Origin: a virus
Length of the DNA stretch: 55,624 nt
IMG/VR virus record: IMGVR_UViG_3300006162_000016
Span: 1 to 55,624 of that record
Direction: 5' to 3' (one strand)
The notes beneath the pieces were generated by a model. That model was not told the origin of the DNA. It saw nothing but the letters and a program-made list of their open reading frames with translations, and made no database searches. This document shows, piece after piece, positions 8,000-50,032 of this stretch (position 1 is its first letter; each line of letters begins with the position of its first letter). Both the position numbers and the translations under genes were made by a program.

Positions 8000-8514
8000 A
8001 ACTTCGATATCAGTTAGGACTACTCATCGTCGGGATACTGGGATGCACGCTGATACTTCAGCGCTGTAACAAACCTTTACCTATCCCGAAAGGACCAGCA
8101 CAAATCTCGTATCAAAATGATACGATTGTGATCAAGCAGAAAGGTAAGCCGGATATCAAAGAGTTTCAACCTGATCCTAAGAGCACAGTCATCACGACTG
8201 ATGATAAAGGGCAAGTAACTGTCAAAGTTCGACAGTTTGGTGTTGGGACTGACTTAGGAGTGGGTATCGGGCTCTCAGACCGCGCTAGAGTGGCGCTGGA
8301 TGACCGCTTTGCCTACTTTAAGCGCTTCGGCGCCAATGCCGGCCTTGGGTTCAGTCTGGATAAGAATGACTACAAGAAGGGCCATTTGCTTGACATTGTG
8401 GACCCTTACGTGGGTGCCAGCGTCGTCCCGTTCGTTGGGATGCCAAATACGTCAATAGTTACAGCGTACACTGTAAGTAAACATGCGTTCATCTTTGTGA
8501 GGGTTCGATTCTAA
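7996..8514 (+). CDS. Predicted membrane-anchored or lipoprotein, 172 aa
   Basis: The N-terminus (residues about 5-21) is hydrophobic and ends in ILGC, a possible lipobox. The C-terminal half alternates hydrophobic and polar residues (FGVGTDLGVGIGL, AGLGFSL, YVGASVVPFVGM, FIFVRVRF), suggesting a beta-barrel or beta-sheet domain. It could be an outer-membrane or spanin-like protein. Overlaps rtcB by one base (TAATG). Confidence 0.5.
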   Translation: MKLRYQLGLLIVGILGCTLILQRCNKPLPIPKGPAQISYQNDTIVIKQKGKPDIKEFQPDPKSTVITTDDKGQVTVKVRQFGVGTDLGVGIGLSDRARVALDDRFAYFKRFGANAGLGFSLDKNDYKKGHLLDIVDPYVGASVVPFVGMPNTSIVTAYTVSKHAFIFVRVRF

Positions 8515-9692
8515 TGCCTATTCAAACCGTTGTCGAAACGCCACACGTCCCAGTGAAGGTCTGGTCACAGGATGTGGAAGCTGAGGCTTTAAAACAGCTT
8601 GAGAACACCGCCCGTTTACCGTTCGTCTTTAAACATGTAGCGGCAATGCCGGATGTTCATGTAGGACGAGGCGCGACAATTGGCTCAGTCATTGCTACCA
8701 AAGGTGCAGTGATTCCAGCGGCAGTGGGTGTTGATATCGGATGTGGTATGATGGCTGTGAAGACAAACTTAATCGCCGCACAAGTTGCGGAGAAGATTGC
8801 GGAGATTAGGCATAGCATCGAGAGGTCTATCCCAGTAGGCTTCAATGCCAATAAATCACTCAGTCAAGAAGTCCAGAATTGGACTGGATGGGTTGATGGA
8901 TGGATTGTTGAAGCTCATCCGGTGGCTGTCATTCAAAAGAGTGCAGCTCAGCTCGGTTCACTTGGTGGCGGGAATCATTTCATTGAAATCTGTTTGGACA
9001 AAGAAAATAATGTGTGGATCATGTTGCACTCAGGCTCACGCAACATTGGTAAGGTGTTGGCGGAGAAACACATTGATAAAGCCAAAGGTCTGATGAAGCA
9101 GATGTTTATCGGCTTGCCTGATCGCGACTTGGCGTACTTTGCACAAGGAACGCCTGAATTCAACGCATATACGTCCGATGTGCGTTGGGCTCAGTCGTAT
9201 GCCATGTTCAACCGTCAAGAGATGATGAGACGGATTCTTAAAGACCTTGGCTTCATGTTCAATGGCGGGATGCCAATAGAACCAGTATTCTCAGTAAACT
9301 GTCATCACAATTACTTGGAGTGGGAGCATCATTATGGAGAGAACGTTATTGTCACGCGCAAAGGAGCAGTACGCGCTAGAGAAGGAGACATGGGAATTAT
9401 TCCGGGCTCTATGGGCACACGGTCCTACATCGTGCGAGGCCGAGGTAATCCTGAGTCATTCAATTCCTGTTCACATGGGGCAGGTCGTCGTATGTCGAGG
9501 ACGAAGGCAAGGGCTACATTCACTGTGGAGGATTTGGCAAAACAAACAGAAGGGGTCGAATGTCGCAAAGATATTGGGATTGTGGATGAGATTCCGGGCG
9601 CGTATAAAGACATTGATGTGGTGATGGCAAATCAAACAGACTTGGTTGAAATCGTAGCTGAGCTCAAGCAAATTTGTTGCATCAAAGGATAG
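8514..9692 (+). CDS. rtcB: RtcB-type RNA ligase, 392 aa
   Basis: Mn/GTP-dependent ligase that joins RNA 2',3'-cyclic-phosphate (or 3'-phosphate) and 5'-OH ends, known for tRNA splicing and repair. Near full length for the family. Motifs in order: DVHVGRGATIG (47-57), VGVDIGCGM (metal-binding Asp74 and Cys77), LGGGNHFIE, HSGSRNIG, NCHHNY, GSMGTRSYIV, CSHGAGRRMSR containing the guanylylated histidine at about residue 320, and DEIPGAYKDI. All key residues appear intact. It may mend host- or phage-cleaved tRNAs; the rearranged tRNA at 48940 is another possible substrate. Confidence 0.95.
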   Translation: MPIQTVVETPHVPVKVWSQDVEAEALKQLENTARLPFVFKHVAAMPDVHVGRGATIGSVIATKGAVIPAAVGVDIGCGMMAVKTNLIAAQVAEKIAEIRHSIERSIPVGFNANKSLSQEVQNWTGWVDGWIVEAHPVAVIQKSAAQLGSLGGGNHFIEICLDKENNVWIMLHSGSRNIGKVLAEKHIDKAKGLMKQMFIGLPDRDLAYFAQGTPEFNAYTSDVRWAQSYAMFNRQEMMRRILKDLGFMFNGGMPIEPVFSVNCHHNYLEWEHHYGENVIVTRKGAVRAREGDMGIIPGSMGTRSYIVRGRGNPESFNSCSHGAGRRMSRTKARATFTVEDLAKQTEGVECRKDIGIVDEIPGAYKDIDVVMANQTDLVEIVAELKQICCIKG

Positions 9693-18839: not shown

Positions 18840-19637
18840 ATGGATAATAACGAGCAACTGAAAATACTTACGCTCGACATTGAGAACTTCCCTTGCGAGG
18901 TTTACTCATGGACACTTGGTGAAGTGCACATTCCGTTAGAGTTTTTGAAGAGAGATTGGTCAGTATGCGCTTGGGCCGCACATTGGTATGGAAAGCCGGC
19001 CAATGAAATCATTTATAAAGACAATCGTGGCAAAAGAGATGTGTATGATGACAAGGAGCTCATCAAAGGGCTGGCTGATTTGATGAATCAAGCCGATGTC
19101 ATTGTGGGACAGAATGTAAAAGCTTTTGATATCAAGAAATTAGCTGCCAGAGCAGTCATTCATGGGTTGCCACCGTTCAAACCTGTGAAGGTGACTGATA
19201 TTTTGACTGAAGAACGCCGAGTCTTTGCGTTCACATCGCACAAGTTGGCCTATAAGACAGAAATTGTCGAGGGCAAGTACAAGAAGCTCAAGCATGAGAA
19301 GTATCCGGGCTTTGACTTGTGGAAAGCGTGCATGGCTAACAAGTTGGATGCGTGGAAAGAGATGGAAACGTATTGCAAGCATGACGTTTTATCGACGGAA
19401 GAGCATTATCATCAAGTCCGGGGCTGGATCAGGACCCAGAATATCTCACCGATTGGTAATAGTGGGAAGATGCAATGCCGCTGCGGTAGTAGCCGCCTCA
19501 TTAAGAAGGGGTATGCTCACACAGAGGTGGGCAAGTATCAAGTCTATCGGTGTCTGGACTGTGGCAAGTGGCCACGGAGTCCAATTAATCTACTCACGAA
19601 AGACCTTCGTGTGAATCGTCTTAGGGAGGCTCAATAA
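18840..19637 (+). CDS. DEDD-type 3'-5' exonuclease with zinc ribbon, 265 aa
   Basis: RNase H-like exonuclease: LTLDIENFP (Exo I), VIVGQNVKAFDIKKL (Exo II) and YCKHDVLSTEEHY (Exo III). Residues about 213-245 form a four-Cys ribbon (CRCGSSRLIKKGY, then YRCLDCGKW) similar to those of IS1-type transposases. The polymerase already has a proofreading domain, so this is a separate nuclease. AAAGGGAGA sets the start. Confidence 0.75.
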   Translation: MDNNEQLKILTLDIENFPCEVYSWTLGEVHIPLEFLKRDWSVCAWAAHWYGKPANEIIYKDNRGKRDVYDDKELIKGLADLMNQADVIVGQNVKAFDIKKLAARAVIHGLPPFKPVKVTDILTEERRVFAFTSHKLAYKTEIVEGKYKKLKHEKYPGFDLWKACMANKLDAWKEMETYCKHDVLSTEEHYHQVRGWIRTQNISPIGNSGKMQCRCGSSRLIKKGYAHTEVGKYQVYRCLDCGKWPRSPINLLTKDLRVNRLREAQ

Positions 19638-20551
19638 TGAAGTTGCCCAGTTACGTATCAATCTACAACTTTGGTCACCGTGCAGTGGCCAATCTTTTGG
19701 TGGGGCCAGTCTATGTCCAAGAAAAAGTGGATGGGTCACAATTTTCCTTTGGTGTGGGGGAAGATGGTACTGTTATGACCCGTTCCAAAGGTTCTGAGGT
19801 CTTTTTGGAGACTGCAGATAAGCTGTTCAAAGGAGCCGTGGAATATGTCCATTCGATCAAAGATAAACTCACTCCGGGATACGTATATCGTGGAGAAGTT
19901 CTGTGTCGTCCTAAGCATAATACTTTGGCTTATGATCGGGTACCGCGTCATAATGTCGTGCTCTTTGACATCAATACCGGAGAAGAGTGTTACATGGCTT
20001 ATTCCGATATTCTGAATGAAGCAGCCAAGCTCGATCTGGAAGTGGTCCCGTTGATATATCACGGAATCGTGGAATCCGCTGATCAACTCAAAGCCTTCTT
20101 GGAGACGCAAAGCTTCTTAGGAGGGCAGAAAGTTGAAGGTGTGGTTGTGAAACCCGTCAACTATGATCAGTTCGGTACAGATCACAAAGCGCTCATGGGC
20201 AAATATGTTTCGGAAGCGTTCAAAGAGATTCATGGTGGAGAATGGCGAAAGAACAATCCCACACAGAATGGTGTGATTGACGCCATTGCCCTGCAGTACA
20301 AGACGCCGGCCCGTTGGGAGAAGAGCATTCAGCATCTTCGTGATGCCGGAGAGCTCACAGACTCCCCACAAGACATTGGCAAGCTGATGAAAGCTGTGAA
20401 TGTCGATGTGCTCAAGGAATGTGAAGATGAGATCAGAGCCGAGCTCTTTAAACAGGCGTGGCCAAAGATTGCACGCATCATCACAGCAGGGTTGCCGGAA
20501 TACTATAAGAAGATGCTTCTTGAGAAGCAATTCGTGACGGAGGTCAAATAA
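19637..20551 (+). CDS. Rnl2-type RNA ligase, 304 aa
   Basis: ATP-dependent covalent nucleotidyltransferase that seals 3'-OH/5'-phosphate ends. Motif I QEKVDGS with Lys30 as the AMP-accepting residue, motif III/IIIa YRGEVL and VVLFDIN, motif IV VEGVVVKP and motif V MGKYV are in the correct order. The helical C-terminus fits the Rnl2 adapter region. A DNA ligase is less likely given length and motifs. The next gene, one base on, is a HAD phosphatase of the RNA-repair type. Confidence 0.82.
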   Translation: MKLPSYVSIYNFGHRAVANLLVGPVYVQEKVDGSQFSFGVGEDGTVMTRSKGSEVFLETADKLFKGAVEYVHSIKDKLTPGYVYRGEVLCRPKHNTLAYDRVPRHNVVLFDINTGEECYMAYSDILNEAAKLDLEVVPLIYHGIVESADQLKAFLETQSFLGGQKVEGVVVKPVNYDQFGTDHKALMGKYVSEAFKEIHGGEWRKNNPTQNGVIDAIALQYKTPARWEKSIQHLRDAGELTDSPQDIGKLMKAVNVDVLKECEDEIRAELFKQAWPKIARIITAGLPEYYKKMLLEKQFVTEVK

Positions 20552-20552
20552 G

Positions 20553-21038
20553 ATGAAAGTGATATTCTTAGATTTCGATGGAGTGATCAACTCCGAGGCT
20601 AGTTTCCGCTATGAAGTTCGGCGGAAGACACAAAGTGTTGGAGATACGCTTTCTCCTATTGCGTGTTCCAATCTGCAGTACATCCTTGATCAAGATGCGG
20701 ATATCAAACTTGTCATCTCATCGACATGGCGTAAGCTCCATTCTCTTGAGGAATTGAAACACATCCTTCAGGCCTACGGAGTCAATGGAAACAAGGTCTT
20801 GAGCAAGACACCTTGCGTATTCAGTGGTGATCGGGGCCATGAGATTCGTCTGTGGCTTGATGAGAATCCGAATGTGACAAAATACGTCATCTTGGATGAC
20901 GATAGCACAGCTATGAGTGCCTTGCAGACTGAAGCGGGTGAAGACAAACGAGGTCACTTCTTCCAAACGACATGGGAAGATGGACTCCTGAACAAACAGG
21001 CGAAAGCAATTGCAAAACTTTTCCGAGGAGAAAAATAA
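20553..21038 (+). CDS. HAD phosphatase of the RNA-repair (HAD_SAK) type, 161 aa
   Basis: FLDFDGVIN gives the catalytic Asp7 and Asp9; VISSTWRKL is the signature Ser/Thr-Trp-Arg motif of the HAD domain found in multi-domain RNA repair proteins; VILDDDST is the distal acidic motif. Likely removes terminal phosphates so that RNA ends suit the upstream ligase. One base after the ligase stop, so almost certainly co-expressed. Confidence 0.75.
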   Translation: MKVIFLDFDGVINSEASFRYEVRRKTQSVGDTLSPIACSNLQYILDQDADIKLVISSTWRKLHSLEELKHILQAYGVNGNKVLSKTPCVFSGDRGHEIRLWLDENPNVTKYVILDDDSTAMSALQTEAGEDKRGHFFQTTWEDGLLNKQAKAIAKLFRGEK

Positions 21039-47688: not shown

Positions 47689-48633
47689 TTAGGCCGCACT
47701 CGTACCAATAACTTCGATGGCACGCTGCGAATCCAGAACAGGATACACCGCATAAGCTTTCCAGCCGATGCTGCCGTTCAGGTTCAACGGATCAGCCACG
47801 CCTGAATCACCCGGTTGGTGCACGATCTTCTGAATCCCTTGGTTGGCCACATCGACCGCACCGAAGGACTCTTTCCCGAACACCCAGCTATGATACGTGA
47901 CGGCAGACGACGCGCCAGTACCAGTCAGGATATTCTGCGATTCTTGGAAACGAATGTTGTACAACTTTCCAAGTTCGCCAGCCAAGGCCATATTATGCAC
48001 CTTGTCGATGCTGATATACTTATTCAGCTCGATCCAGCCACTCGCAGCGCTATCGCTCTGCAGGTCGAAGCTGGTGTTGGGGTGAACCAAACCGTGATAC
48101 GTTCCATCTTCAAACGGCATAACCGCGAGAGCACGGAGATGCGCCGAAGCCCGGCGGAAGTCAACGCCAGCAGCAACGACCGACACAGTGGCTTCAGAGA
48201 CAGCCGACCCAGTGTACTGAATGGTCATGTTACCGGACAGAGAGTTCCGACAGATGGTGTCCAACGACAACCCGGCCTGATATCCAAGAACGTCATGGAT
48301 AGCTTCCGTGATATTGTCATACGCTTCCAACATGAGTCTGTCAGAATACGAAACGAACGCTCCATACTGCAGAGGCGTCGCAAGGATTTTTGTGGACTGC
48401 CAAACCAATCCGTTCGGGTTTGCACCTTCGCCTAGCGGCGTGGTGACTGCAGCCTGATTGACAGGGCGCAGGAACTGAATTTGCGTACCGGAAGCTTTCG
48501 GAAGGGTGCGCTTTTCCGCGTTCTCTTGGAAGAACAAAGAGAACATCAAGCGGGTTAACAGTTTGCGGTCATAGAAAATGGCCGACGCGTCATTAAGCCC
48601 ACTCGTTGAGGTGATATTTACATTGAGAGACAT
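47689..48633 (-). CDS. Major capsid protein (N4-gp56 family), 314 aa
   Basis: Matches the N4-gp56 family of HK97-fold capsid proteins: FYDRKLLTRLMFSLFFQENA, KRTLPKASGTQIQFLRP, TTPLGEGANPNG, FVSYSDRLMLEAYDNI and the C-terminal FGKESFGAVDV. Length and position after scaffold fit. AAAGG ribosome site. It has its own structured 230-base leader. Confidence 0.9.
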   Translation of the reverse strand: MSLNVNITSTSGLNDASAIFYDRKLLTRLMFSLFFQENAEKRTLPKASGTQIQFLRPVNQAAVTTPLGEGANPNGLVWQSTKILATPLQYGAFVSYSDRLMLEAYDNITEAIHDVLGYQAGLSLDTICRNSLSGNMTIQYTGSAVSEATVSVVAAGVDFRRASAHLRALAVMPFEDGTYHGLVHPNTSFDLQSDSAASGWIELNKYISIDKVHNMALAGELGKLYNIRFQESQNILTGTGASSAVTYHSWVFGKESFGAVDVANQGIQKIVHQPGDSGVADPLNLNGSIGWKAYAVYPVLDSQRAIEVIGTSAA

Positions 48634-48864
48634 AGTAATTACCTTTGAGAGTTTGATATGTGTGAGCGCGATATCTCATGCACAATTGTACAAGTGCCAA
48701 GGTTAGTGACCGTTTAGCCGTCACCGCATCCGTTCGTTCTGGGGCGTCCACACTGCACGCTTGTCCGTTACTACTGGACACATGCCTTATCTCGTACTAA
48801 CGAGGGGCCTGCTGGTTACCAATCAGATTGTCCTAAACACCGGGTCTGTTTGGTAACTAAAAAT
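48634..48864 (-). promoter_or_regulatory. Structured leader of the capsid gene
   Basis: No gene is seen. On the minus strand an 8-bp inverted repeat (GTTACCAA...TTGGTAAC, about 48820-48860) is followed by hairpins CTCGT/ACGAG, GTCC/GGAC and GTGAC/GTCAC. No clear promoter is visible. The region lies between tRNA-fMet and the capsid gene and may be a processed 5' untranslated region. Confidence 0.45.
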
Positions 48865-48939
48865 TGGTTGCAGAGGACGGAATCGAACCGTCTACCTTCG
48901 GCTTATGAGGCCGACGAGCTACCAATGCTCCACTCCGCG
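48865..48939 (-). tRNA. tRNA with initiator (fMet) features, anticodon CAT
   Basis: A full cloverleaf of 75 bases with encoded CCA. Acceptor CGCGGAG pairs with CTCTGCA except at C1-A72, the mismatch that marks bacterial initiator tRNAs. The D stem has A11-U24, also an initiator feature. Anticodon arm TCGGC-CTCATAA-GCCGA (anticodon at 48905-48907) has three G-C pairs next to the loop, although the innermost is C-G and not G-C. T arm GACGG-TTCGATT-CCGTC. Much of it is close to E. coli tRNA-fMet. It directly abuts the rearranged tRNA at 48940. Confidence 0.93.
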
Positions 48940-49016
48940 AAAGCTGCTGCTCTACCCACTGAGCTACTCCCCCGATGGAGGAGGTGAGAATCGAACTCAC
49001 GACCTAGCTGCTAAAA
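48940..49016 (-). tRNA. Circularly permuted tRNA, probable anticodon UUU (Lys)
   Basis: Read 5' to 3' on the minus strand, the 3' half comes first: anticodon-side TTTTAGCAGCT (49016-49006), variable AGGTC, T arm GTGAG-TTCGATT-CTCAC (49000-48984), acceptor CTCCTCC (48983-48977) and A73. After two bases (48975-48974) comes the 5' half: acceptor GGGGGAG (48973-48967), TA, D arm GCTC-AGTGGGTA-GAGC, then AGCAGCTTT ending at 48940. Acceptor strands pair at 7 of 7 positions (one G-U). The AGCAGCT segments pair with each other apart from a central A-A. Joined through the T runs, the loop reads C-U-UUU-A-G. No linear tRNA can be drawn for either half. A pseudogene made by rearrangement is the alternative. 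Confidence 0.7.
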
Positions 49017-49021
49017 TTGTG

Positions 49022-49041
49022 CCGGGGATTTTAACCCCCGG
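49022..49041 (-). terminator. Hairpin between scaffold gene and tRNA locus
   Basis: On the minus strand CCGGGG pairs with CCCCGG over an eight-base loop, followed by CACAATTTT. It lies 14 bases after the scaffold stop. It may be a terminator, or a processing stem marking the 5' end of the permuted tRNA precursor, because the T run belongs to the tRNA 3' half. Confidence 0.6.
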
Positions 49042-49054
49042 TCTTCGTTATTAC

Positions 49055-50032
49055 TTAGCTGTTCTGCTGCTGAGCAATGAGCCACTCACGCTGTTCATTC
49101 AAAGACATTTTCTTAAATGCCGCTAAATGATCAGAGGGGATTCTGCCGGCGCCTTTACCTGCACTGGCCACCGTTCCACCTTTGGCTTCTTCAGAGAGCG
49201 CGGCTTGCGCTTCTTTGATTGCTTCTTCTCTTGCAGCTTTGGCAATGGCGTCTTTTTCTTTCGCCAACATGTCTGCCAACATACTTTTCATTTCTGATTC
49301 TTTATAGACTTTCTCAGCCGAAACTACCGGAGCAGCTTGTGCGGCAGAAGCTGGATTCTCTTGCAAAGCCAGTTCATACAACGCATCGAGCACTTCAGCA
49401 GCAGGCTTCGTAAAGTCAATTCGAGGATCACCCTGCCCAGTGGGTCCCATTGCTATCTTCACAATACTAGGATACAGTCTCTTCCACTCAGGATAATTCT
49501 CAGTGTCTTGCTCACGCCGCATTCGTTCAAGCGCGGTATCTTTAGCTTTCGCTTCGGACGCCAGCGCATCTAAACGTTCTTGGAGCTCGGCAGTCGCAGA
49601 CTCTTTTTCATTCTCAATGATCTGTGCCAACTCTTCGGGACTCTTCTTGGACAACTCTTTGTAGTCCATTGGAGTCTTGGACATCTTGGCCAACAACTTA
49701 TAAGTCTTTTCCTGTTCAGCTCGGATAGCTGCCATCTCATCCCGCAGCTTCTTATTTTCCTGACTGACTCTCGTATTCCACTTGCGGAGCTCGGCTGGAT
49801 CATTCGGCTCTTTCTTTTCAGGTTTGACTTCTGGCTTCTTGTCATCAGCCTTCTGTTCAGGAGCTTTCTGTTCTGGCGCCTTCTCTTCTTTCTTCTCTGG
49901 TGTCTCAGGAGCCTTCTCTTCAGACTTCTGTTCCGGGGCCTTGGCCGCCGCTTCCTTCTCCGCTGTTTCTAAAGCTTCTGCTCTTTGCGCGATTGATGCT
50001 GGGCTTACAACACTCATTCCTTGCTTATCCAT
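49055..50032 (-). CDS. Putative scaffolding protein, 325 aa
   Basis: Extremely Ala/Glu/Lys-rich first 130 residues (low-complexity PEQK repeats), then long coiled helices with QENKKLRDEMAAIRAEQEKT and SKKSPEELAQIIENEKESAT, and a basic C-terminus. This composition, immediately before the capsid gene and after the portal, is characteristic of phage scaffolds. GGGAG ribosome site. Confidence 0.75.
   Translation of the reverse strand: MDKQGMSVVSPASIAQRAEALETAEKEAAAKAPEQKSEEKAPETPEKKEEKAPEQKAPEQKADDKKPEVKPEKKEPNDPAELRKWNTRVSQENKKLRDEMAAIRAEQEKTYKLLAKMSKTPMDYKELSKKSPEELAQIIENEKESATAELQERLDALASEAKAKDTALERMRREQDTENYPEWKRLYPSIVKIAMGPTGQGDPRIDFTKPAAEVLDALYELALQENPASAAQAAPVVSAEKVYKESEMKSMLADMLAKEKDAIAKAAREEAIKEAQAALSEEAKGGTVASAGKGAGRIPSDHLAAFKKMSLNEQREWLIAQQQNS

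Follow-up and report, generated by a model that had tools for sequence, protein, structure and literature searches.

The window, which is the whole 55,624-nucleotide stretch of viral DNA that was analysed, carries a string of structured sequences on its minus strand, between two genes. The upstream gene (49055–50032), which is in the scaffold position and has no family match, ends 13 nt before a leader (49013–49041) composed of a GC-rich hairpin (49022–49041) and then CACAATTTT. The sequence of this hairpin varies between related phages and its pairing is kept. The leader is followed by a tRNA-like RNA whose halves are encoded in reversed order; it occupies 48940–49016 and is referred to here as the element. 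Adjoining it is an initiator-type tRNA-Met(CAT) at 48865–48939, identified by ARAGORN and Rfam, with the C1-A72 mismatch evident in its sequence. Downstream is the major capsid gene (47689–48633; phrog_1357, E 5.6e-47).

An initiator-type tRNA-Met precedes the capsid gene in nearly all of the relatives; the anticodon assigned by ARAGORN is CCT, not CAT, at one related locus (L018), and at another (L022) the tRNA was not found. Some relatives without the element have a comparable leader, hairpin-(CACAA)TTT, immediately next to the tRNA-fMet. Between the tRNA-fMet of the window and the capsid start codon there is a leader of about 230 nt (48634–48860, minus strand), which contains recurring motifs common to the relatives, GTTACCAA..TTGGTAAC and GCCCCTCG..CGAG. 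This capsid leader has no Rfam match and its fold energy is ordinary (z -0.4). HNH endonuclease-like ORFs were seen by eye: those of L011 and L013/L014 are inserted in or beside the capsid leader, and those of L007 upstream of the tRNA-fMet.

Structure and conservation of the element

Read 5' to 3' from 49016 to 48940, the element starts with TTTT and an AGCAGCT sequence (49006–49012), which is the 3' strand of a stem equivalent to the anticodon stem. AGGTC then leads to the T arm, GTGAG-TTCGATT-CTCAC (48984–49000), which is followed by a capped acceptor stem, CTCCTCC-ATC-GGGGGAG (48967–48983), in which the 3' acceptor strand comes before the 5' acceptor strand with a 3-nt loop (ATC) between them. 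After TA is the D arm, GCTC-AGTGGGTA-GAGC (48949–48964), and a second AGCAGCT sequence (48942–48948), the 5' strand of the anticodon-equivalent stem, which pairs with the first to close the stem of seven positions and is followed by the final TT. All 7 positions of the acceptor are paired, one of them as G-U, as are the 5 of the T stem and the 4 of the D stem. The D loop contains GG and the AGCAGCT/AGCAGCT stem has a single A-A mismatch. As read from the sequence, the nucleotides of the tRNA elbow are present and CCA is absent. The sequence-only reading of this DNA had described the same order of the halves and the same pairing, including the intact T arm with TTCGATT, the D stem with a GG loop, and the AGCAGCT helix with one A-A, all of which were seen. 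Its two bases between the halves are obtained when the discriminator A is counted separately, the acceptor loop actually being 3 nt.

The predicted minimum free energy structure is exactly this fold together with the upstream hairpin (z -3.5). Reversed-order matches with 7/7 acceptor, 5/5 T stem and 4/4 D stem pairs were found in none of 60 dinucleotide shuffles of the window, with both strands scanned. Search tools that assume linear order do miss the element, as had been anticipated; ARAGORN, and Rfam at its gathering threshold, find only the tRNA-Met at 48939–48865. The possibility of a linear tRNA overlooked by the programs was rejected.

Scanning IMG/VR with a pattern and with the capsid protein gave 20 related loci. 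The element is present on 7 of these 20 contigs and, with one contig version identical to that of the window, there are 6 distinct versions when the window's is counted. Pair conservation was counted on hand-defined helices in the 6 distinct copies. Every pair is intact in all six, with two exceptions: acceptor pair 3 in L005 (A-C, in CTCCCCC-TTCG-GGAGGAG), and the 4th pair of the anticodon-like stem, where every copy has an A-A or C-A mismatch. Double-sided changes were found at pairs 2, 3 and 4 of the T stem, at pairs 2, 4 and 5 of the acceptor, which in L008 is CTGACTC-CTT-GAGTCAG, and in two lineages in the anticodon-like stem, at pair 2 (L015) and pair 3 (L008). The D stem is invariant across copies. 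The same order in related phages with compensating changes in the acceptor stem, put forward as a check by the sequence-only reading, is therefore present (6 distinct copies; 3 acceptor pairs). The acceptor cap is a 3-nt loop or, in L005, UUCG. TTTTAGC and GCTTT, on either side of the break, do not vary among the copies. The sequence outside the element diverges, and in L002 an additional stretch of about 80 nt separates the element from the tRNA-fMet. A chance origin of the element is ruled out by the covariation and the shuffles.

On the capsid tree the distribution of the element fits two changes, for example one gain and one loss. In two relatives without the element, L016 and L017, the empty site is CACAATTT directly before the tRNA-fMet. 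A relaxed pattern, AATTTTAGC..GTTCRANTC, was found on 61 further contigs, none of which had the element by inspection, and a portal search for additional family members gave no new junctions. In a direct blastn against GenBank phages, the reversed-order element was absent among the matches listed, which were to the tRNA-Met only. Neither the element pattern nor the capsid protein was found in the species genome collection used for the host search, and no description of phage permuted tRNAs, or of the element in the present phage group, was found in the open PMC literature.

Likeness to YrlA RNAs

The element shares the permuted order of T arm, capped acceptor and D arm with YrlA (Y RNA-like A, RF02553), one of the Y RNAs of bacteria and phages. 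The match of the window element to RF02553 has a score of 37.7 bits (E 7e-7) and covers only positions 25–83 of the 114 in the model, which is the tRNA-like domain. Four other members that were tested scored 35–41 bits over the same domain only, with the basal stem never matched. The RF02553 gathering score of 69 is not reached by the window element. Phage YrlAs located beside Ro genes likewise score under 69 (29–59 bits), and a sub-gathering score is therefore not in itself exclusive. The tandem tRNA pair of L154, in which the tRNAs are 1 nt apart, gave no YrlA match. The match of the element to the YrlA model may reflect the shared permuted-tRNA shape alone rather than common descent. The likeness to YrlA extends to the tRNA elbow nucleotides, to occurrence in phages, and to a kinked stem in the place of the anticodon stem, for which the element has the constant 1x1 mismatch in 6/6 copies. 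In the YrlA structure published in Structure in 2018 there is reportedly a kink at the corresponding position of the stem.

The element differs from YrlA in its location next to the phage initiator tRNA and capsid gene, in its score under the Rfam gathering score, and in having neither a basal Ro-binding stem, formed from paired 5' and 3' ends, nor a detectable Ro gene. The U:D duplex of a basal helix has z values between -0.1 and +0.7 in 7/7 copies of the window family; in the wider class, pairing of the 5' and 3' flanks at z -1.5 or lower is seen in 17/20. A stricter single-helix test identified no helix at a conserved place in the window family, and the wider class is also often without a significant helix by this test. 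A Ro60/TROVE gene was found in 0/8 window-clade records (the window and seven others), these being IMG/VR contigs that may be fragments, in which case a Ro gene could possibly lie beyond the contig end. TROVE is present in 11/19 of the other records. Both of the features that define a Y RNA, the Ro stem and the Ro gene, are thus missing from the window family, and with no Ro-binding stem found the element is not filed as YrlA.

Reversed-order RNAs were also sought in other phages using a generic scan and a purpose-built detector, the counts from which are lower bounds. With the generic scan, unrelated phages were found to have at least dozens of reversed-order RNAs. Five GenBank examples are beside genes annotated as encoding Ro-like or RNA-binding protein, in Mycobacterium phages Alice, Sparky, and prophiGD43A-5, Gordonia phage Sixama, and Vibrio phage BONAISHI, and several GenBank examples match YrlA across the full model in cmscan. 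This indicates that RNAs combining reversed order and a capped acceptor belong to a known kind, the YrlA tRNA mimic. The sequence-only reading had taken the element as a permuted tRNA gene with no established phage example known to it; that premise of novelty falls because this arrangement is the YrlA signature and YrlA-type RNAs occur in phages. Reversed-order tRNAs of phages should therefore be compared with YrlA before they are called permuted tRNA genes.

The permuted, two-piece tmRNA (RF04321) also has the T arm and the 3' strand of the acceptor before its 5' strand. The window element differs from it in having a full D arm and no mRNA-like part, and identity as a tmRNA was rejected on the RF04321 score of 20.9 against a cut-off of 47 bits.

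Interpretation and alternative explanations

The element looks like a variant of the YrlA type that has neither Ro nor the basal stem, and it is apparently not a working tRNA gene. The explanation that is somewhat favoured is that it is a YrlA-type tRNA mimic lacking the Ro-binding basal stem, freed from the late transcript, and that its simplest role would be that of a decoy or of an RNA that binds proteins. Such an RNA would be descended from YrlA and would be transcribed with the late genes within the string of hairpin, tRNA mimic, initiator tRNA and capsid leader. Host RNase P probably cuts at the 5' end of the tRNA-fMet, which would generate the ..GCUUU 3' end of the element, and its 5' end could be formed by a cut in the AAUUUU run behind the leader hairpin. 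The freed RNA would be about 76 nt and would retain the tRNA elbow, so that proteins that read the elbow, such as tRNA-modifying enzymes, PNPase, or tRNA-targeting nucleases, might bind it during infection. DusA and TruB modify the domain of YrlA, and the basal stem of YrlA binds Rsr (PMC8394870); competitive inhibition of an anticodon nuclease has been proposed for YrlA (PMC7790460). On the favoured explanation, the tRNA-mimic half of Y RNAs would be able to persist under selection without Ro, in a phage with RNA-repair enzymes. A natural RNA of this minimal size makes the role of the YrlA tRNA-like domain on its own testable, either as a decoy for anticodon nuclease or as a handle for PNPase.

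The alternative of a true circularly permuted tRNA gene is considered rather unlikely. In this case RNase P and trimming would open the acceptor side, and RtcB or RNA ligase of the phage would join the anticodon loop to give tRNA-Lys(UUU). The phage encodes an RtcB RNA ligase (8514–9692, plus strand; PF01139, E 1e-128), an ATP-dependent RNA ligase (19637–20551, plus strand; PF09414, E 2.7e-15) and, after the RNA ligase gene, an RNA-repair-type phosphatase, HAD_SAK_2 (20553–21038, plus strand; PF18143, E 5.5e-26). The two ligases are possible partners of the element, and their presence makes ligation at the open anticodon end possible. The RNA ligase is found in all three long records (window, L008, L015). 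RtcB is also in the L015 record and is absent from the 58.8-kb L008 record, which keeps the element; RtcB was therefore rejected as an obligatory partner, and its absence there counts against the permuted tRNA gene as well. RNA-repair sets of this kind have been described in jumbo phages, as a response to the RNases of the host (PMC7824862). When the ends are joined by computer as TTT+TTTA or TT+TTTTA, ARAGORN calls tRNA-Lys(ttt) on 6/6 copies, and the invariance of the flanks of the break is also in favour of a permuted gene. However, the joined loop would have U37 and a length of 5–8 nt depending on the joint, the mismatch 29-41 is retained in all copies, the nucleotide at the discriminator position varies (A/C/T), and the halves are just 3–4 nt apart and close a hairpin loop. 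These features make a mature tRNA less likely. Likewise, no conserved flank pairing, such as a bulge-helix-bulge, is present in any copy. The demand for AAA codons is unremarkable, at 27.6 per 1000 vs 23.8 for AAG.

The circularly permuted tRNA genes known from red algae, green algae and certain archaea (Soma 2014, PMC3978253) are alike in having reversed halves and a break in the region of the anticodon loop. They differ from the window element, which is in a phage, has its acceptor halves in a closed hairpin without a bulge-helix-bulge, and has no evident canonical anticodon loop. Of the permuted tRNA gene originally proposed, the 3' half before the 5' half in a tRNA fold, the covariation, and the conservation are retained, and a gene yielding mature tRNA is less likely. 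It is likewise unlikely that a permuted tRNA with its ends in the anticodon loop is sealed by the RtcB or RNA ligase of the phage into either tRNA-Lys(UUU) or a closed circular tRNA mimic. If this were true, a circular mimic resembling a nicked tRNA could, during infection, shield tRNAs or keep damage to tRNAs from being sensed by the host.

It is improbable that the element is a processing module, the tRNA-like fold of which attracts RNase P or another tRNA enzyme so that cleavage separates the upstream gene from the tRNA-fMet/capsid part of the late transcript, with the RNA having no other job. Its intergenic location, among consecutive structured modules each ending in TTT just before the next, would suit this function, as would the tRNA-fMet directly 3' of it in most copies, yet that tRNA supplies an RNase P site by itself and several relatives are without the element. 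In addition, a capped acceptor makes a poor RNase P substrate. Even less probable, and indeed very unlikely, is a complete Y RNA with a cryptic basal stem that serves a host Ro protein. Although tandem and single YrlAs adjoin Ro genes in many phages, and YrlA is in one operon with rtcBA in Salmonella (PMC7790460), a conserved outer helix is seen in 0/7 copies and the place of the 3' stem strand is taken by the tRNA-fMet in most of them. A functionless relic of two tandem tRNAs shortened by recombination, suggested by the borders of the insert in T runs and by the empty sites, is scarcely credible, being contradicted by compensatory changes in three helices despite diverging flanks.

Reversed-order RNAs in other phages

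TROVE proteins have been reported in some jumbo phages (PMC7824862). The L083 jumbo-phage record (354 kb) contains RNAs of the YrlA type that have a basal stem, TTGGAATTCA/TGAATTCCAG, and the record has no TROVE match; the partner protein of these RNAs is possibly divergent or a different one. The reversed-order RNAs of Alice, Sparky, GAP32, Serratia BF, and BONAISHI are without RNA annotation. In prophiGD43A-5 an annotated tRNA-Thr(tgt) overlaps a YrlA-type RNA (L149 3073–3151; MW584167.1 26001–26079) and is probably a misannotation.

An anticodon hairpin is kept in 14 of 31 reversed-order RNAs, with pairs 29–31/39–41 in the half that is encoded first, U33, and a purine at 37; roughly estimated, about 0.2 of 31 would be expected by chance. 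The observation concerns loci L055, L112, L129, L092, L034, L104, L143 (+3071), L136 (-4388), L148, L149 (+3129), L153, L154, and L155. The break is mostly after position 28 or near it, and the RNAs are reconstructed as Pro, Thr, Lys, Gln, Ala, Asn, or Ser tRNAs. YrlAs may therefore be permuted copies of specific tRNAs, mimicking their anticodons.
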